A program made the position numbers and the translations under genes. DNA of 64,000 nt from Thiomicrorhabdus sp. GTDB lineage: Bacteria > Pseudomonadota > Gammaproteobacteria > Thiomicrospirales > Thiomicrospiraceae. Below the pieces are notes generated by a model, which worked only from the letters and a program-made list of their open reading frames with translations, did not search any database and had not been told where the DNA came from. Location: positions 62,001 through 126,000 of the forward strand of contig NZ_OY782570.1 of the NCBI RefSeq assembly GCF_963677875.1, written 5' to 3'. Positions 4,229 to 60,848 of the stretch are shown here, one piece after another. How positions within the stretch are numbered: position 1 is the stretch's first letter; the number at the start of each line of letters is the position of its first letter.

Positions 4229-6790
4229 ATGCAACAGCAAAAAATCGTCGTCGTGGGTAACGGCATGGTCGGTCACAGCTTTATTGAGAAGCTGGTCAAA
4301 AGTGAAGCGCGTCAAAATTATGAAATTATCGTCTTTGGTGAAGAGCCGCGTAAGGCTTATGACCGCGTTTATCTGTCATCCTATTTCTCCGGCAAAACGG
4401 CCGATGACTTGAGTCTGGTCACGCCGGGCTTTTACGAAGAAAACGAGATTGATATTCGCCTGAATCAAAAGATTGTCTCAATTGACCGCGCAGCGAAAAC
4501 CGTGACTGCTGACGACGGTTCGGTACAGGCTTACGACCGTTTGGTACTGGCGACCGGTTCTTATCCGTTTGTGCCGCCAATTAATGGCAATGACCGTGAT
4601 GGCTGTTTGGTGTATCGCACGATCGAAGATTTGGATGCGATTCAAGCGGCGGCGGGCAAAGGCAAAATCGGTACCGTAGTCGGTGGCGGTCTATTGGGTC
4701 TGGAAGCGGCGAAAGCACTGAAAGATTTGGGTTTGGAAACTCACGTGGTTGAATTCGCACCGCGCCTAATGCCGGTGCAGTTGGACGAAGGCGGGGCAGC
4801 ATTGCTAAAGCGCAAAATCGAAAATCTCGGCGTAATGGTGCACACCAATAAGGCGACGCAAATCATTAGCGACGGCGAAACGTGCATTAATAAAATGGAG
4901 TTTGCCGACGGTCAAACGCTGGAAACCGATATTGTGCTCTTTTCGGCGGGGATTCGTCCACGTGACGAACTCGCTAAACAGGCCGAATTGGAAATTGGCG
5001 CGCGTGGCGGGATTGTTATCAATTCGCACTGCCTGACTTCTGACCCAAGCATCTACGCGATTGGTGAATGTGCCTTGTACGAAGGCATGATTTACGGGCT
5101 GGTTGCGCCGGGTTATGCGATGGCGCAGGTGGTGGTTGACCAACTGAATCTCGACGAAAACCGTTTTGAAGGTGCCGATATGAGCACCAAACTGAAGCTG
5201 ATGGGCGTGGATGTGGCGTCTATTGGTGACCCGCACGGCAATGACGAAGATGCACTGAGCTATGTTTACGAAAACGGGCCGGAAGAGATTTATAAAAAGA
5301 TTGTCGTCAGCAAAGACGGAAAAAAACTGCTTGGTGCGGTGCTGGTCGGCGAAACCGAAGACTACGGCAATCTATTGCAGTTAAAACTCAACGATATGGA
5401 GCTACCGGAACATCCGGATATGTTGATTCTGCCAAATCGCGACGGTTCTGCCGGTGCGCTGTTTGGTCCGGATGCTCTGCCGGATACCGCACAACTTTGT
5501 TCCTGCTATGACGTATCAAAAGGCGATGTCATTGCCGCAGTTGAAGGTGGTGCCATGTGCCTGTCGGATATTAAATCCTGCACCCAAGCCTGTACCGGTT
5601 GCGGCGGCTGTACTCAGCTGGTCACCAATGTATTGAATAACGAACTGGAAAAACGTGGTGTGGAAGTCAGCAAAGACATCTGCGAACACTTCCCTTATTC
5701 GCGTCAGGAGCTGTACCACCTGTGCCAAGTTGAAGGGATTAAAACCTTTGATGAGCTGTTGCACAAACACGGTAAAGGGTGCGGCTGTCCAGTTTGTAAA
5801 CAGGCGGCAGGGAGCATTTTCGGTTCGCTTTGGAACAGCTACGCGCTGGAAAAAGACAAGATTCCGCTGCAAGACACCAACGACAACTACCTTGGTAATA
5901 TGCAGAAAGACGGTACCTATTCGGTGATTCCGCGTGTGCCGGGCGGGGAAATTACACCGGATAAACTGATTACGCTCGGTGATGTGGCGAAGAAATTTAA
6001 CCTTTACACCAAAATCAACGGCGGGCAACGTATTGTGCTGTTTGGCGCGCAGATGAATGATTTACCGGCTATCTGGACTGAGCTACTCGCCGCCGGTTTC
6101 GAATCGGGTCAAGCCTATGCGAAAGCATTGCGTACCGTGAAATCCTGCGTCGGTTCAACCTGGTGTCGCTACGGTCTGGATGATTCCGTGACCATGGCAA
6201 TCGAGATGGAAAACCGCTACAAGGGTCTGCGCTCGCCGCACAAACTGAAAATGGGTGTCTCGGGCTGTACGCGTGAATGTGCCGAAGCGCAGGCGAAGGA
6301 TATCGGTCTGATTTCCACCGAAGAGGGTTGGAACCTGTTTGTGTGCGGTAACGGCGGAATGAAACCGCGTCACGCGGATTTGTTCGCCACCAAATTGAGC
6401 AAAGAAGAGGTCTTTAAATACGTTGACCGTCTGCTGATGTTCTATATCAAAACCGCTGACCGCCTGCAACGTACCGCAACGTGGATGGACAATCTGGAAG
6501 GTGGCTTGGAATACCTGCAAGACGTGGTGATTAACGACTCACTCGGCATTGGCGAACAACTCGAAACGCAAATGGCAGGGCTGATTGATACCTACGAATG
6601 CGACTGGAAACGTGCCATCGAAAATCCGGAATTCACCAAACGCTTTAAATCGTTTGTGAACACCGAACAACCGGCAAAACAAGTCTTCACCATCGAGCGT
6701 GGACAAGTCCGCCCATCCACCACCCAAGAAAAACTTGACGGTATTGCAGTAGAAATCAAAGCCAAAACGGATTATACAAATGTAGCCTGA
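4229..6790 (+). CDS. nirB: Assimilatory nitrite reductase [NAD(P)H], large subunit
   Basis: Reduces nitrite to ammonium with six electrons from NAD(P)H in the cytoplasm. The 853 residues match the usual NirB length of about 850. Order: FAD fold (VVVGNGMVG near residue 8), NAD fold (GGGLLGLEAA near 151), BFD-like [2Fe-2S] domain with Cys near 421-424 and 451-458, then the sulfite/nitrite reductase ferredoxin-like and 4Fe-4S/siroheme domains. The siroheme and cluster ligands are visible as Cys640, Cys646, Cys680 and Cys684. The ATG at 4229 is preceded by GGAGAAAAAT. No NirD-like Rieske domain is fused at the C-terminus and no nirD follows, so the small subunit, if used, is encoded elsewhere. 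Confidence 0.95.
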   Translation: MQQQKIVVVGNGMVGHSFIEKLVKSEARQNYEIIVFGEEPRKAYDRVYLSSYFSGKTADDLSLVTPGFYEENEIDIRLNQKIVSIDRAAKTVTADDGSVQAYDRLVLATGSYPFVPPINGNDRDGCLVYRTIEDLDAIQAAAGKGKIGTVVGGGLLGLEAAKALKDLGLETHVVEFAPRLMPVQLDEGGAALLKRKIENLGVMVHTNKATQIISDGETCINKMEFADGQTLETDIVLFSAGIRPRDELAKQAELEIGARGGIVINSHCLTSDPSIYAIGECALYEGMIYGLVAPGYAMAQVVVDQLNLDENRFEGADMSTKLKLMGVDVASIGDPHGNDEDALSYVYENGPEEIYKKIVVSKDGKKLLGAVLVGETEDYGNLLQLKLNDMELPEHPDMLILPNRDGSAGALFGPDALPDTAQLCSCYDVSKGDVIAAVEGGAMCLSDIKSCTQACTGCGGCTQLVTNVLNNELEKRGVEVSKDICEHFPYSRQELYHLCQVEGIKTFDELLHKHGKGCGCPVCKQAAGSIFGSLWNSYALEKDKIPLQDTNDNYLGNMQKDGTYSVIPRVPGGEITPDKLITLGDVAKKFNLYTKINGGQRIVLFGAQMNDLPAIWTELLAAGFESGQAYAKALRTVKSCVGSTWCRYGLDDSVTMAIEMENRYKGLRSPHKLKMGVSGCTRECAEAQAKDIGLISTEEGWNLFVCGNGGMKPRHADLFATKLSKEEVFKYVDRLLMFYIKTADRLQRTATWMDNLEGGLEYLQDVVINDSLGIGEQLETQMAGLIDTYECDWKRAIENPEFTKRFKSFVNTEQPAKQVFTIERGQVRPSTTQEKLDGIAVEIKAKTDYTNVA

Positions 6791-55702: not shown

Positions 55703-57022
55703 TTAGAACACCATGGTTACTTGCGCGGATACGCGGTTGTCGATGGTCTTCAGAATATCGTGAACCGGAGAGGAGCTTGGCAGCTTTGGTGCATCGATTG
55801 AACGGATTTCGTAGTTCAAGCGAGCTGAAGTTTTCTTATTGAAGAAGTACTGAGCCCCAAGGGTTGTGGTTCGGAATTCACGATAGTTGGCGTCGACCTC
55901 GGTGCCGCTGTCCAAAGCGTCATAGCGCAGGTTCAGCTCAATTTTCGGTTGAATGCGATAACCGAAATCCAGTTGATAAGCGTAGGCTTTTTCGTCGGTC
56001 TGAACACTGAACGAAGAAGTTTGGGTGCCGTTGTTGGAAAGCGCGCCCGGGACAGCTGCTCCGCTGGTTCCGCCATAAATCATACCGTCGGCAGTGATGT
56101 ATTCGGCCGCCATACGATATTTGCCGTCAAAGTAGGTCATCCCGAGACCGGCACGCTTGCGGTTTTTTTCGGTTGCGGCTCCGCTAATGTTAATGGTGCG
56201 TTTTCCGTCTTGCATCCAGGCATAGAGTTTTACGCCGTGGCGGCGGGGCCCGGAGGTGTTGTCGAAGACTTTTTCCGTAGAAAGATACAGGTAAAGATCT
56301 TTGTTTTCGTCATTGTCTGTCAGAGCCAGACCATTGCCGTTTCCGAGCATCAGCGCGTAACTGTGTTCCCAATCGCCCTGGCGGAAGGCGTCGAAGATTT
56401 GAAGCCCCGTGTCGCGACCGGCGCCAACGGAAGCGTTACGGCCCAAATCGCCGCTGCTGTTGTCGAAAAAGCGCTCCAGAAGCAAGCGATTGGTTCCGTT
56501 GGTAAAGTTGACATAGTTAAAGACCGGAATGGCTTTCAAAAGTTCTTCCGAACCCGGAGTTTTAAATAAACCGACACGTACCCGGGCGCCCGGCAGGTGA
56601 TTGAAGGTGACACTGGCATCGGTGAGTTGACCTTGTGACGCCTTGCCGCCGGTGGTAATTCCGTTATTGCCGAGTTCCGCCATCAGGAAATAATTGATAT
56701 TGCTGTCCAGCGGAAAATTTGCTCCACGGATGCTGACACGGGCTCGACGGATATTGAAACCGCTCGCGGAATCCAGTTGCGGAGCCATCTGGTTGAAAGC
56801 CGCTTTTTGCCCGGCCCATGGCCCGGCTTTGAGTTTTGTGTCGTCGGTTGACTGGTATTCCACCTGAGCAAATCCCCAGAGTTTTGCTGCCGGAGCCTGA
56901 TTGGGTTTTTCGGTTCCCTGCAACATCAGCCAGTTGGTGGCCTGAGCGCTGGGCGCCAGCAAGGCGCAACCAAGAGCAGTTGTCAAAGCGGTGCGTTTCA
57001 TGTTGTTTTTATACGTAAACAT
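55703..57022 (-). CDS. Outer-membrane porin (OprP/OprO-like)
   Basis: A 439-residue porin. The signal peptide is cut after SAQA near residue 29. The mature part has the phosphate-selective-porin look: FNIRRARVSIRGANFPLDSN, YFLMAELGNNG, ARVRVGLFKTPGSEE, and a C-terminal strand ending in Phe (VSAQVTMVF). Twelve to sixteen beta-strands are expected; the substrate is not known. It is last in the operon with two DsrE-like proteins (gaps of 63 and 54 bp), divergent from an ECF sigma gene. The start at 57022 has AGAGGA upstream; a later Met at 57001 does not. Confidence 0.88.
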   Translation of the reverse strand: MFTYKNNMKRTALTTALGCALLAPSAQATNWLMLQGTEKPNQAPAAKLWGFAQVEYQSTDDTKLKAGPWAGQKAAFNQMAPQLDSASGFNIRRARVSIRGANFPLDSNINYFLMAELGNNGITTGGKASQGQLTDASVTFNHLPGARVRVGLFKTPGSEELLKAIPVFNYVNFTNGTNRLLLERFFDNSSGDLGRNASVGAGRDTGLQIFDAFRQGDWEHSYALMLGNGNGLALTDNDENKDLYLYLSTEKVFDNTSGPRRHGVKLYAWMQDGKRTINISGAATEKNRKRAGLGMTYFDGKYRMAAEYITADGMIYGGTSGAAVPGALSNNGTQTSSFSVQTDEKAYAYQLDFGYRIQPKIELNLRYDALDSGTEVDANYREFRTTTLGAQYFFNKKTSARLNYEIRSIDAPKLPSSSPVHDILKTIDNRVSAQVTMVF

Positions 57023-57076: not shown

Positions 57077-57565
57077 TTACGGACGCAGATACAGGTAACC
57101 TTTCGATTGCAGATAAGCCAGTTCGGCGACACCGCTCGGAACGACACTGGAAGGCTCAACATCGTAAAGATCGCGTTCGATGTTTACGTCACGACCTTTG
57201 ACGGTGTTGGCGCACACATTGAAATGGACTCCCTGCATTTTGAGCTGGTCGATTTTTTGCGTCATCTGGGTGTCGGCATTGGCGGCTTTGAACTTTGGCA
57301 CATTCTGCAAAGCGTCCGGCTTGAGCAGCAAGGACAGGCCGTTACCGTGCAGCACCACTTGAATGTCCAACTTGTCTTCGCCGACGGCGTTGATGTGGTT
57401 TTGAATGTTCCGCAGGGTTGAGGATTGCTTTTTGGCATCGTCGTAATTGATGTGGTAAACCACTTTCTGGAATCCGTATCGGTTTTGTTCGGCGGCCTGA
57501 CTTGCGAACGCGACCAGTGTCAACACAGATGCGATGAATAGTTTGCTCCAGCTAAAGTTTCTCAT
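57077..57565 (-). CDS. Secreted DsrE-like protein, copy 1
   Basis: A 162-residue protein with a cleavable signal peptide (cut expected after FASQA near residue 24) and a DsrE/F-like domain (about 33-162): VVYHINYDDAKK, then IQVVLHGNGLSLLL, then HFNVCANTVKG (Cys108) and a final SGVAELAYLQSKGYLYLRP. Cytoplasmic DsrE proteins handle sulfur as persulfide; the role of secreted members is not known. It sits between its paralogue and a porin in one operon. The single conserved Cys is the likely reactive residue. Confidence 0.82.
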   Translation of the reverse strand: MRNFSWSKLFIASVLTLVAFASQAAEQNRYGFQKVVYHINYDDAKKQSSTLRNIQNHINAVGEDKLDIQVVLHGNGLSLLLKPDALQNVPKFKAANADTQMTQKIDQLKMQGVHFNVCANTVKGRDVNIERDLYDVEPSSVVPSGVAELAYLQSKGYLYLRP

Positions 57566-57628: not shown

Positions 57629-58084
57629 TTAAGGTTTCAGCAGCTGCCAGCCTGCGGCATTGAGTTGCAAAAGTCGTCCTGCGCCGGCAGGAACAACTTG
57701 AATGCCGTTGCCGGTTTCAAGTTCATGTCCCAATTTTCCGGCAAAGTTTTTCAGGGTATTGGCGCAGGCACTGAAGCGAATTCCCGCCGCCATCATTGAC
57801 TGCATCCGAACCTGATTCGGGTTTCCCTTCAGCATCAAGCGAACGCCGGGCCCGAAAGAGACGACTTCGATATCAACATTTTCTGCACCGTAGTAGCGTT
57901 GCAGGTTTCCGGCAACGTTCAGAACCAGCGTCTGTTTGAAGGGGTCACTGTCACTGATTTGCAGGACGACTTTGTGTTCTGCAAAGGTTTCCGGAAGCGG
58001 CGCTTCCTGCTGGGCGGCGAAGGCCTGGCAGGAGATAAACAGACCGATTAGCCAGAGGATCCGTTGCGTGGTGTTTTTTAACAT
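57629..58084 (-). CDS. Secreted DsrE-like protein, copy 2
   Basis: A 151-residue protein with a signal peptide (cut expected after AFA near residue 23) and a DsrE-like domain: VVLQISDSDPFKQTLVLNV, IEVVSFGPGVRLML, RFSACANTLKNF (Cys107), and a C-terminal GWQLLKP. Its plan matches copy 1, and its SDSDP stretch is close to the DSDDP stretch of the anti-sigma factor encoded on the opposite strand. It is first in the operon; the promoter lies in 58085-58324. Confidence 0.82.
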   Translation of the reverse strand: MLKNTTQRILWLIGLFISCQAFAAQQEAPLPETFAEHKVVLQISDSDPFKQTLVLNVAGNLQRYYGAENVDIEVVSFGPGVRLMLKGNPNQVRMQSMMAAGIRFSACANTLKNFAGKLGHELETGNGIQVVPAGAGRLLQLNAAGWQLLKP

Positions 58085-58155
58085 GGGTTAAATTCCTTCT
58101 GATTCTTCAAGAGGTGAAATTAAGCGCGCTTAGTGGGTAAACGCTTGGCGGGTGG

Positions 58156-58164
58156 TTTTTATTC
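58156..58164 (-). promoter_or_regulatory. Possible ECF -35-like element, DsrE side
   Basis: On the minus strand GAATAAAAA stands about 72 bp before the DsrE copy 2 start. The same nine bases occur at 58248-58256 on the plus strand, pointing the other way. CGTTTA lies 14 bases after GAATAAA on the minus strand. Confidence 0.4.
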
Positions 58165-58247
58165 CATATTTTTGAGACAAAGTTTTTTATTAGAGAGATA
58201 GTTATTTTTATTTCATAAGTTGTTAATATTTGAGTAAAAATAACCGT

Positions 58248-58324: not shown

Positions 58325-58900
58325 ATGAATTTTTCAAAAAAAGTAACCGGTTTTCTGTGTGATGCGCGGGAAAAACAGAGATTTAACAGCGCCATTGAGA
58401 AGCAGTATTCCGGGTTGTATCGTCTGGCATTTGCCTGGTGTCATCAGGCTGCAGTGGCGGAAGATCTGGTTCAGGAAACTCTGCTTAAAGCGATAGAAAG
58501 CCGCAAAGATCTTGAGTGTTTGGAGCATTTGAATGCATGGTTGTGCCGGATCATGCATAATCAGTTTTTGGATAATATCCGTTATAACCGTCGCTGGGAG
58601 TGGGTGGAGGAGTCGGAAATCGATCAGTATTTTTGTGCTGATTGCACCGAAACCCAGCTGATCAGACAGCAGACTGCCGAGCGTTTTTATCAGGCGTTAT
58701 CACGCCTTTCTTTCTCACAGAGAGAGGCGATTACGCTTGCTGATCTGCAAGGGTTCAGTTATCAGGAAATTGCTGAGATAACCGAAACGCCAATCGGTAC
58801 GGTTATGAGCCGGATTTCACGCGGACGCGAAAAATTAAAAGAATTACTGCAGCAGGCTGAGACCCAGCAGAACAGAGTGATCTCTCTTTGGAGAAGTTGA
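58325..58900 (+). CDS. ECF sigma-70 factor
   Basis: A 191-residue sigma factor. Region 2 is YRLAFAWCHQAAVAEDLVQE followed by TLLKAIES and a WLCRIMHNQFLDNIRY stretch (about 32-90), and region 4 is REAITLADLQGFSYQEIAE with GTVMSRISRGREKLK (about 130-180). The stop overlaps the ATG of the anti-sigma gene (TGATG), so they are translationally coupled. It faces the DsrE-porin operon across 240 bp of AT-rich DNA. Confidence 0.9.
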   Translation: MNFSKKVTGFLCDAREKQRFNSAIEKQYSGLYRLAFAWCHQAAVAEDLVQETLLKAIESRKDLECLEHLNAWLCRIMHNQFLDNIRYNRRWEWVEESEIDQYFCADCTETQLIRQQTAERFYQALSRLSFSQREAITLADLQGFSYQEIAEITETPIGTVMSRISRGREKLKELLQQAETQQNRVISLWRS

Positions 58901-59592
58901 TGTCAAGAAAAATAGAAAGTTATCAAATTCATGCCTATGTCGATGGTCAGTTAAGTCGTGAGGAGTGCCTGGAAATTGAAATGGCGATGCAGCATGAACC
59001 GGAGCTGGAACAGCGTATCTGTCAGTTACGCGGATTAAAGTCGAAGCTGAAAGAGGTTTATAACGATATTCCCGTTCCGAAAAAGCATTTGCATAAAGCG
59101 GATGTATCGCGGCTTTCCGGCTTTCCGAGAAGTATTGCGGCATCGGTGGTGCTGGGGATGTTTCTTGGCGCCGGGGCATTGAATCTGTATTTGAACGGCG
59201 GGCAGGCGACGGCTGTCGGAGCGGTTCAGCAGCAGATGTTGGCGTCGAAATATGTTATTCACCTGGATTCGGATGATCCACAAAAAGAGATACTGGCGCT
59301 TCAGGAAGCTCGCAAATTATTATCTGACGGAGGGCCGGAAGTTCAGGTGGACATGATTTCCAACTATCATGGAGTGAATCTGTTTGAAGTCGATAACCCT
59401 AATCGTTCGCAGTTGGAATCTCTTTTGGAGCAGTATCCGAATCTGACGCTGTATGCCTGTCATCGTGCCTTGCAAAGAGCAATTAATCGCGGGGAAGATA
59501 TCCAGATGCTTCCGCAGGTTGTTCAGGATCGGGCTGGAATCGATGCGCTGGCTGAGAGGCTGATTTCCGGTTGGCGTTACATCAAAATTTAA
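58900..59592 (+). CDS. Anti-sigma factor with periplasmic DsrE-like domain
   Basis: A 230-residue protein. Residues about 5-50 look like an anti-sigma N-terminal domain (ESYQIHAYVDGQLSREEC) although the usual His-x3-Cys-x2-Cys zinc motif is absent. A membrane helix follows near 78-98. Residues about 117-230 read like a DsrE-like domain: VIHLDSDDPQKE (compare SDSDPFKQ of the secreted copy), VQVDMISNYHGVNLF, TLYACHRALQ (Cys187 at the position of Cys107/108), and a final GWRYIKI. The C-terminal part should lie in the periplasm. ATG 58900 has GGAG 6 bases upstream; ATG 58888 is in frame but overlaps sigma further. The DsrE reading is my comparison with the neighbouring proteins, not a search result. 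Confidence 0.8.
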   Translation: MSRKIESYQIHAYVDGQLSREECLEIEMAMQHEPELEQRICQLRGLKSKLKEVYNDIPVPKKHLHKADVSRLSGFPRSIAASVVLGMFLGAGALNLYLNGGQATAVGAVQQQMLASKYVIHLDSDDPQKEILALQEARKLLSDGGPEVQVDMISNYHGVNLFEVDNPNRSQLESLLEQYPNLTLYACHRALQRAINRGEDIQMLPQVVQDRAGIDALAERLISGWRYIKI

Positions 59593-59741: not shown

Positions 59742-60848
59742 TTATTCGTTGCTTTCGCCTAAATCACCGCCGGTAAATTCACGGTAAATATGCACGGCAT
59801 TATTGCGGTAGGTCTGCTCGAAAACCGGACGGTCGCTGTAAGCGGTTTGGTCGATCTGATCCAGATTCTGTTCGTTACCGCCGGCGGCAATCAGTTTTTC
59901 GATCTGTGTATGCATGTCTTTCAGATAGTCGTAAGTATCTTTTTTGACTTGTTGCAGACTGGTCGGGCTGCCATGGCCGGGTACGACCTTGACGTCTTTT
60001 GGCATGGCATCCATAAAGACTTCAAAGGTTTCAACCCATTTACGAGTGTCTGTATAGGAGAATAGTGCCAACATGCGTTTATTGTAGGCCAGGTCGCCAG
60101 GGAAGACGATATTGCGTTTTGGCAGGTAGACAATGGTGGAGCCGGGAGTATGGCCCGGGCCGAAATTCATAATCTGTACGCTTTCACCGCCGCCGACATC
60201 GACTGTGATGCGGTCGTCGAAGGTGGTGAAGAGATCAGACACGTCGCGGGCGTCTTCGGTCAGTTCATGGCCGACTCGAGTGCCCCAGCTGTTTTTGATT
60301 GCAGCAAAACCGTTATGGAAGTCGTCGTTTGCGACGGAATGAGAGTAAAGGTGTTTTACGCCTTGATCAACCCAGTAGCTCGCTCCCAGATAAGCGTGTC
60401 CCTGACTGTTTTCCACAGCGACCCATTTTACCGGTTTGTCGGTCACTTGTTTGATTTGCTGGTGAAGAGAATAGGCCAGGGCCGTATTGGCACCGGCATT
60501 GAATACAAAAACCCCGTCTTCGAATACCATGAAGCTTAGGTTGTTGTTCAGGCCGAAGTTGCTCGGGTTATGCCAGATCAGGCTGCCGACCACGGTGTAG
60601 ATGCCGTCGGCGACTTCTTCGGCTTGCGGAATCGGCAGTGTTCTGCCGATGTAACCTTCTTTTTTGATGGTTTTTTCCAGGTCGCGGGCGTATTCATCCA
60701 CTGACAGAGGAATGATGCCGCCATCGGCATAGCCTTTCATTTCCTGAGCGTAGTGCTGAAACCCCTCGGTGTAAGCGTCCGAGGCATTGGCTAAAGGCAG
60801 CACGCTGCCGAGTAAGCTGAATCCGAGCGCGAGTTTAAATGTTTGCAT
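59742..60848 (-). CDS. Secreted MBL-fold hydrolase with altered metal motif
   Basis: A 368-residue protein with a signal peptide (cut expected after ANA near residue 22) and a metallo-beta-lactamase fold. Later metal motifs are present: GHTPGSTIVYL, FPGDLAYN and VPGHGSP. The first motif, normally His-x-His-x-Asp-His, is replaced by ENSQGHAYLGASYW (Gln149, His151, Tyr153, Leu154), so only one of the four usual ligands of that block remains. It may bind one metal, use another chemistry, or be inactive. It follows a TetR gene by 39 bp and is probably its target. Confidence 0.82.
   Translation of the reverse strand: MQTFKLALGFSLLGSVLPLANASDAYTEGFQHYAQEMKGYADGGIIPLSVDEYARDLEKTIKKEGYIGRTLPIPQAEEVADGIYTVVGSLIWHNPSNFGLNNNLSFMVFEDGVFVFNAGANTALAYSLHQQIKQVTDKPVKWVAVENSQGHAYLGASYWVDQGVKHLYSHSVANDDFHNGFAAIKNSWGTRVGHELTEDARDVSDLFTTFDDRITVDVGGGESVQIMNFGPGHTPGSTIVYLPKRNIVFPGDLAYNKRMLALFSYTDTRKWVETFEVFMDAMPKDVKVVPGHGSPTSLQQVKKDTYDYLKDMHTQIEKLIAAGGNEQNLDQIDQTAYSDRPVFEQTYRNNAVHIYREFTGGDLGESNE

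Follow-up and report, generated by a model that had tools for sequence, protein, structure and literature searches.

Apart from a few extracytoplasmic function (ECF) sigma factors, the known regulators of sox genes, among them SoxR/SoxS, are repressors and two-component systems, and to our knowledge the question of how sulfur oxidisers sense thiosulfate, polysulfide or sulfur outside the inner membrane is largely open. SoxR/SoxS and TspS/TspR (PMC12194929), the latter also regulating sulfur oxidation genes according to the available part of its description, are repressor or two-component systems, unlike the sigma/anti-sigma pair considered here. ECF26 pairs (S. meliloti RpoE4, Starkeya novella SigE) likewise lie beside sulfur-oxidation genes and respond to sulfur compounds; compared by description only, they differ in that their targets are sulfite-oxidising enzymes and that a DsrE domain is unmentioned in the accessible text (PMC3511301, PMC6527743). 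In Arcobacter butzleri, ECF sigma-2 and sigma-7 affect sox expression in opposite directions and are set apart by their description, in whose accessible text no sensor domain is described and the terms "dsr" and "domain" are absent (PMC3445524). Here, we describe a gene pair from a 64,000-nucleotide stretch of Thiomicrorhabdus sp. (contig NZ_OY782570.1, positions 62,001 to 126,000, hereafter named the window), made of an ECF-type sigma factor and an anti-sigma factor whose C-terminal part is predicted to adopt the fold of DsrE-type sulfur carriers. We rate this protein as an ECF anti-sigma factor whose putative periplasmic sensor domain is of a new kind; its nearest functional precedents are the ECF26 pairs and A. 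butzleri sigma-2/sigma-7.

DsrE-type proteins carry sulfur on a conserved cysteine, as established for DsrEFH and TusBCD, and the known examples DsrEFH, TusBCD and YchN are soluble and reside in the cytoplasm. The fused domain has the fold and the aligned cysteine of this DsrE/DsrF-like family (MTH1491, ST0148, DsrEFH, YchN, TusBCD) but appears to be membrane-anchored, facing the periplasm, and joined to an anti-sigma-like region. Membrane-bound class I anti-sigma factors (RseA-like, zf-HC2/ZAS) are alike in their small cytoplasmic N-terminus, their single helix and the position of their gene behind that of an ECF sigma factor. Unlike the ZAS-type members (RsrA, ChrR), however, none of 71 aligned full-length fusion proteins (0/71) carries the zinc-binding motif HxxxCxxC; this alignment holds the window protein, 29 proteins from related genomes and 41 from a class sample, with 21 of the 71 rows coming from the window's own genus. 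The sequence-only reading that led to this study knew of no described anti-sigma factor with a DsrE sensor, and none is described in the available parts of the literature searched, which did not extend to the 2021 ECF re-classification (Nucleic Acids Research). Thus, the terms "sulfur" and "dsre" are absent from the accessible text of the class I anti-sigma classification (PMC7406223), DsrE and sigma-factor terms are present but unrelated to each other in that of PMC10512742, and the accessible parts of PMC7787665, PMC8103513 and PMC2147049 contain, respectively, nothing on DsrE with sigma factors, no relevant term and no sensor domain. An apparent "DsrE" in the accessible text of PMC3511301 is the word DsRed and was discarded.

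The protein had been read as a 230-residue product coupled to an ECF sigma factor and crossing the membrane once, and both points hold. The start codon of its gene (ATG) overlaps the sigma gene's stop codon (stop/start coupling), and in 71/71 loci the fused anti-sigma gene lies directly downstream of a sigma gene; the window sigma protein matches Sigma70_r4_2 (2.4e-17) and Sigma70_r2 (7.6e-12) in Pfam. A frame artefact was ruled out, as full-length relatives without internal stops exist, including one with 77% identity in L031, the nearest named genome found (Thiomicrorhabdus heinhorstiae, a gammaproteobacterium; 76-77% identity). A single helix with the N-terminus inside, the topology of a membrane-bound anti-sigma factor, is predicted: the best Kyte-Doolittle 19-mer reaches the membrane-helix limit (≥1.6) in 64/71 fusion proteins, and K/R residues are in surplus on the N-terminal side of the helix in 68/71 and equal in 3/71. 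The N-terminus of the window protein matches zf-HC2 with 19.6 bits, under the Pfam cut-off of 22.2, and PRK13920 anti-sigmaE with 24.2 bits, far under the cut-off of 225; zf-HC2 is matched at E≤1 by 25 of the 29 fusion proteins scanned, and anti-sigma chains are absent from the PDB matches of the full-length profile. The product of this gene is probably a membrane protein that holds back the ECF sigma factor. A ZAS redox switch in the N-terminus was ruled out: besides the missing zinc motif, neither cysteine of this region is invariant (Cys41 in 36/71, Cys23 in 10/71).

The C-terminal domain had been likened by eye to two secreted DsrE-like proteins encoded next door, DsrE_b (P0003) and DsrE_a (P0002). 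Residues 113-230 align with DsrE_b with a Smith-Waterman score of 100 (shuffles, 26.7 ± 5.0; 0/500 reach 100) and more weakly with DsrE_a (45; shuffles, 28.3 ± 5.0; 4/500 reach 45), both cases being settled by profile-profile comparison (E 4.6e-9 with the DsrE_a family, 1.2e-19 with the DsrE_b family). The secreted-family profiles use 24/27 DsrE_b-family (alignment A2) and 19/21 DsrE_a-family (A3) sequences, alignment A4 has 29/30, and in both comparisons the cysteines are aligned. The proposed equivalence of Cys187 with cysteines 107 and 108 therefore stands for the alignment itself and for DsrE_b, whereas the DsrE_a residue is 118 and not 108; likewise, the G-W-x-x-(I/L)-K ending proposed for these proteins fails for DsrE_a, which ends in G-Y-L-Y-L-R.

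Against the PDB, residues 117-229 of the window protein alone match MTH1491 (1l1s) at 2.5e-6. With profiles, 1l1s is reached at 2e-7 from 17 close relatives and at 8.6e-16 from 30 domains, the larger profile also matching ST0148 (2pd2) at 3.5e-10, with the cysteines in register. For the secreted DsrE_a family, whose membership in Pfam DsrE is clear, 1l1s is likewise the best match (2.1e-11). The PDB titles of 1l1s and 2pd2 read "unknown function"; we take both to be DsrE kin. The sequence-only reading had named PF02635 (Pfam DsrE) as the profile to search with, but this model gives no match to the window protein even at E≤10, and at this limit it matches just 8/30 fused domains (best, 2.5e-7). 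A Pfam scan therefore overlooks the domain of the window protein, and its DsrE-family homology is drawn from the profile-profile and PDB profile matches, not from Pfam's own membership rule. An AlphaFold (AF2) model of residues 116-230 made from four sequences reached, for the best of five, a predicted local distance difference test score (pLDDT) of 88.7 and a predicted template-modelling score (pTM) of 0.82 (worst pLDDT, 62.9). With this model, Foldseek retrieves 1l1s (TMq 0.83), YchN (1jx7_A, 0.75) and 2hy5_A (0.73); ranks 1-13 comprise 1l1s, ST0148, an engineered DsrE-like cage, DsrEFH chains (in 2hy5, presumably DsrE and DsrF), YchN, TusBCD (2d1p), four other DsrE-type titles and 2fb6 (rank 8, titled unknown function), and unrelated folds appear from rank 14 down. 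As judged from the profile matches and the model, residues 116-230 are a domain of DsrE/YchN-like fold and not of an unrelated one, with a cysteine aligned in 1l1s, 2pd2 and both secreted families.

The conservation of the cysteine among orthologues, on which the proposal of a sensor depended, is complete. Cys187 and Trp225 are found in 71/71 proteins, and His121 and Tyr227 in 70/71, while identity to the window protein falls to 18% in alignment A1 and 20% in A4. The DsrE domain contains exactly one cysteine in 71/71 proteins; hence, an intradomain disulfide switch was ruled out, and a mixed adduct or an intermolecular bond would be the natural chemistry of a lone cysteine. The shared cysteine is also kept in 27/27 members of the DsrE_b family and 21/21 of the DsrE_a family.

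The sequence-only reading had suggested looking for the same fusion in other genomes, and it turned out to be widespread. The window protein finds matches in 31/58 related genomes and, at 1e-6, in 113/369 class genomes, many of them via secreted DsrE proteins alone. Calling a fusion when the match spans query positions ≤10 to ≥226, which leaves partial or split cases in G293, G298 and G125 uncounted, we found it by hand count in 66/369 class genomes and 40 family codes among the matches listed. In the phylum sample, 3/299 genomes carry the full-length fusion, all three from the same class. In a tree of 147 domains, midpoint-rooted and built on few columns with several long branches, the fused domains form one side of a branch with 99/99 support, which points to a single fusion event. 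Secreted proteins longer than 215 aa were omitted from this tree (76/78 kept), and anti-sigma open reading frames (ORFs) of ≤200 aa from the set of anti-sigma sequences (30/32 kept). The two short ORFs (124 and 91 aa) are the pieces of an anti-sigma gene split in a fragmented assembly (L051:1863-2553), by assembly error or by a real break. In another locus (L116:5081-11280), two sigma/DsrE-anti-sigma pairs stand in tandem, with DsrE_a downstream and DsrE_b and a porin gene diverging; this duplicated system may respond to two signals.

In the same 369 class genomes, soxB (TIGR04486, E≤1e-100) is found in 150. It is present in 65/66 fusion genomes, one of these matches (G134) being partial and below the family cut-off, versus 85/303 others (Fisher 5e-29, shared ancestry uncorrected), and dsrB (TIGR02066, E≤1e-50) in 52/66 versus 65/303. 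Among genomes with soxB, the fusion occurs in 51/103 with dsrB and 14/47 without it, the window's genome being one of the 14; among genomes with dsrB, it occurs in 51/103 with soxB and 1/14 without. The fusion therefore goes with both genes, and almost never without soxB. These results bear on the idea that the DsrE domain, as a structural relic, does no more than oligomerise or stabilise the anti-sigma protein, and that regulation is exerted by proteolysis or by an envelope stress unrelated to sulfur. Such a role would suit the large sequence divergence and the fact that ligand binding is only proposed, but the retention of Cys187, Trp225 and His121 despite that divergence, as well as the presence of soxB in nearly all fusion genomes, make us regard it as very improbable.

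Coordinates of the pair and of its surroundings are given in Table 1. In the window, the DsrE_b, DsrE_a and porin genes diverge from the sigma gene. Of the 66 class genomes with the fusion, a further 40 contributed neighbourhoods. DsrE_b is divergent within 2.5 kb in 44/71 loci, DsrE_a lies within 4 kb in 26/71 (downstream on the same strand in 10), any secreted DsrE is near the fusion in 54/71 and a porin in 49/71. When the ORFs of the loci were clustered, just three clusters were widely recurrent, those of the DsrE domain (74 loci), of sigma (71) and of porins (47); the next ones (13-17 class-wide loci) resemble, by eye, shadow ORFs of these three, and the remainder occur in ≤8 class-wide loci or are limited to the window's relatives. 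The anti-sigma gene is adjoined by a gene for a secreted metallo-beta-lactamase-fold hydrolase (59742-60848, minus strand), whose nearest NCBIfam family is that of SoxH-related quinoprotein-relay hydrolases (90.8 bits, below the cut-off of 280); it lies outside the conserved cluster because, among L032-L065, it was seen besides the window in L032 only.

Table 1 Features of the sigma/anti-sigma locus and of the divergent cluster (positions in the window)
Feature	Position	Strand	Basis
ECF-type sigma factor gene, 191 aa, sigma regions 2 and 4	58325..58900	+	Pfam; putatively cognate by position
Anti-sigma factor fused to a predicted DsrE-fold domain, 230 aa	58900..59592	+	ORF call; relatives found by search
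Anti-sigma-like N-terminal region, ~residues 1-60, limits by eye	58900..59079	+	Sub-threshold zf-HC2; no HxxxCxxC
Predicted single transmembrane helix, ~residues 76-98, limits by eye	59125..59193	+	Hydropathy; N-terminus inside by charge
Predicted periplasmic DsrE-fold domain, residues 116-230	59245..59589	+	PDB profile matches, AF2, Foldseek
Cys187 codon, only Cys of the DsrE domain	59458..59460	+	Aligned with Cys of secreted paralogues and MTH1491
ECF-promoter-like motif GGAATA-N16-CGTT	58140..58165	-	55 bases before the DsrE_b start
Secreted DsrE-like protein DsrE_b (P0003), 151 aa, apparent signal peptide, Cys107	57629..58084	-	Pfam DsrE 23.6 bits, cut-off 22.7
Secreted DsrE-like protein DsrE_a (P0002), 162 aa, apparent signal peptide, Cys118	57077..57565	-	Pfam DsrE 44.2 bits, cut-off 22.7
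Outer-membrane porin, Porin_O_P type, last gene of the divergent cluster	55703..57022	-	Pfam 29 bits, cut-off 20.9

A motif, GGAATA-N15/16-CGTY, which we take to have the form of ECF promoters, recurs at these loci. Counted as GGAAT-N14-20-CGT[CT], it precedes DsrE_b in 31/50 cases (dinucleotide shuffles expect 0.7; opposite strand, 9/50) and sigma genes in 28/72 (72 of 73 regions, one being too short; shuffles expect 1.0; opposite strand, 40, where the divergent DsrE_b promoter lies). Its spacers, in this pattern, are of 16-17 bases in all but about three sites, and it seldom precedes DsrE_a (3/28), porin (5/48) or anti-sigma genes (4/73). The secreted DsrE genes are candidate targets of the sigma factor, and, as to their products, one may ask whether they, rather than the fused domain, are the sensors. 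The fused DsrE domain would then be a docking site where secreted DsrE proteins bind and either lock the anti-sigma factor or trigger release, much as CpxP and RseB act on their partners, and a feedback loop would be closed because the secreted DsrE genes would themselves be a sigma target. The frequent presence of these paralogues beside the fusion, at times downstream on its strand, the motif before DsrE_b and the propensity of DsrE-type proteins to form hetero-oligomers (DsrEFH, 2hy5; TusBCD, 2d1p) all suit docking. On the other hand, a pure docking domain has no need of an invariant, sole cysteine, and 17/71 loci have no secreted DsrE inside the distance limits, though it is possibly encoded elsewhere. 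We consider this docking reading rather unlikely.

In three genomes, the pair is part of a sox operon or adjoins one. Two of these, from a single genus (L141, L142), have the motif, sigma and anti-sigma genes, soxX, a SoxY-like ORF, soxZ, soxA and soxB in succession on the same strand, from which DsrE_b and the porin gene diverge. In L143, the motif (4438-4463) stands just before soxX (ORF from 4475), followed by a SoxY-like ORF, soxZ, soxA, soxB and a secreted DsrE. In L146, aprBA lies ~1.7 kb from the sigma/anti-sigma pair. Above NCBIfam cut-offs are SoxX, SoxA and SoxB in L142, SoxX, SoxZ, SoxA and SoxB in L143, and AprB and AprA in L146; the other sox ORFs were named by tblastn to those, and SoxY by its position and its GGCGG end only, which we take to be the SoxY motif. 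In a further genome (G046, L064:5559-7904), a gene for a DsrE_b-type secreted protein comes after soxX, soxZ and soxA, on their strand; neither an anti-sigma fusion nor a soxB match at 1e-100 is found there. Secreted DsrE is possibly an unrecognised part of sox operons. Because a secreted DsrE follows soxB in L143 and soxA in L064, A. butzleri AB0569, which lies between soxA and soxB and is listed with sox genes under ECF sigma-2 in the accessible text of PMC3445524, is worth comparing with DsrE profiles.

The gene content also bears on whether the signal might be sulfite or a general thiol-oxidative envelope stress, with the DsrE domain reporting that Cys187 has been oxidised or has undergone sulfitolysis, and not the presence of sulfane sulfur. 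Sulfur oxidisers are able to make sulfite, and sulfite-responsive ECF sigma/anti-sigma pairs, namely the ECF26 pairs next to sulfite dehydrogenases, are known from the available parts of PMC3511301 and PMC6527743. However, the common neighbours are secreted DsrE proteins and porins, with sox genes in a few genomes, a weak counter-argument as no search was aimed at sulfite oxidases. We view sulfite or general thiol stress as an improbable signal.

The reading that we favour, and consider probable with some reserve, is that this transmembrane ECF sigma/anti-sigma pair has captured a DsrE-type sulfur-carrier domain, which serves as a periplasmic sensor of sulfur species and releases the sigma factor. 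The cytoplasmic N-terminus would keep the sigma factor at the membrane. During oxidation of reduced sulfur, a periplasmic species (tetrathionate, polysulfide, persulfide or thiosulfonate) would load Cys187, either directly or after a handover from one of the secreted DsrE paralogues. Once loaded or bound to its partner, the domain would change in conformation or in oligomeric state. This would set the sigma factor free through intramembrane proteolysis or a conformational relay, release by proteolysis being assumed by analogy with other membrane anti-sigma factors. Free sigma factor would then transcribe the divergent secreted-DsrE/porin genes from GGAATA-N15/16-CGTY promoters, as well as its own gene in many relatives that do not belong to the window's family and, in a few cases, soxXYZAB. 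Sulfur sensing by the fused domain is what we infer from indirect support: the fusion tracks soxB and, in three genomes, is located within a sox operon or next to one. More tentatively, the fused DsrE domain may be the end station of a periplasmic sulfur relay running through the porin and DsrE_b/DsrE_a, the sulfur load of Cys187 being read through the inner membrane to switch a sigma factor in charge of both the uptake and the oxidation of reduced sulfur; a relay protein would thereby have turned into a receptor.

Several observations weigh against this periplasmic sulfur-sensor reading. The ligand cannot be assumed, because, according to the available part of its description, the archaeal DsrE-type protein DsrE3A of M. 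cuprina takes thiosulfonate from tetrathionate and shows no reaction with polysulfide, thiosulfate or sulfite (PMC4175335). A full-length AlphaFold model from two sequences was uninformative (pLDDT 36.6) and was not used, so that the N-terminus is assigned by its weak zf-HC2 similarity and gene position only. Among the 17 loci where a secreted DsrE was not found within the distance limits, 11 have more than 3 kb of room upstream. Alignment rows and genomes share ancestry, so that the counts and Fisher p-values suggest more independence than there is. The sequences in which the motif was counted are those that had yielded it; before DsrE_b, the motif is present in 21/23 cases in the window's family but in just 10/27 outside it, and, before sigma genes, in 2/27 in that family versus 26/45 elsewhere. 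With no good copy upstream of the window's sigma gene either, autoregulation is not indicated in the window. In the window's genome, the strict pattern GGAATAAN{15,16}CGTY has 7 matches versus 6 in the backward control, which is background, and the motif is absent from the 18-kb stretch around its soxB (L144), the one sox region looked at there; sigma control of sox is not indicated in this genome. A regulon defined there by the pattern was rejected: the flanks of the other 6 sites hold no convincing target, most of these sites being inside ORFs and the one in L136 overlapping the 3' end of an ORF, ~290 bases before the next.

Overall, a DsrE-domain anti-sigma factor would tie sulfur-carrier chemistry to transcription via one invariant cysteine. 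The domain may have gone unnoticed so far because the Pfam DsrE model misses it in the window protein. The fusion spans 40 family codes of the class sample, nearly always with soxB. If the relay through the secreted DsrE proteins proves true, it would represent a widespread, previously undescribed sensing system for sulfane sulfur or thiosulfonate in gammaproteobacterial sulfur oxidisers. Sulfur-oxidising bacteria may thus sense sulfur compounds outside the inner membrane by this design.

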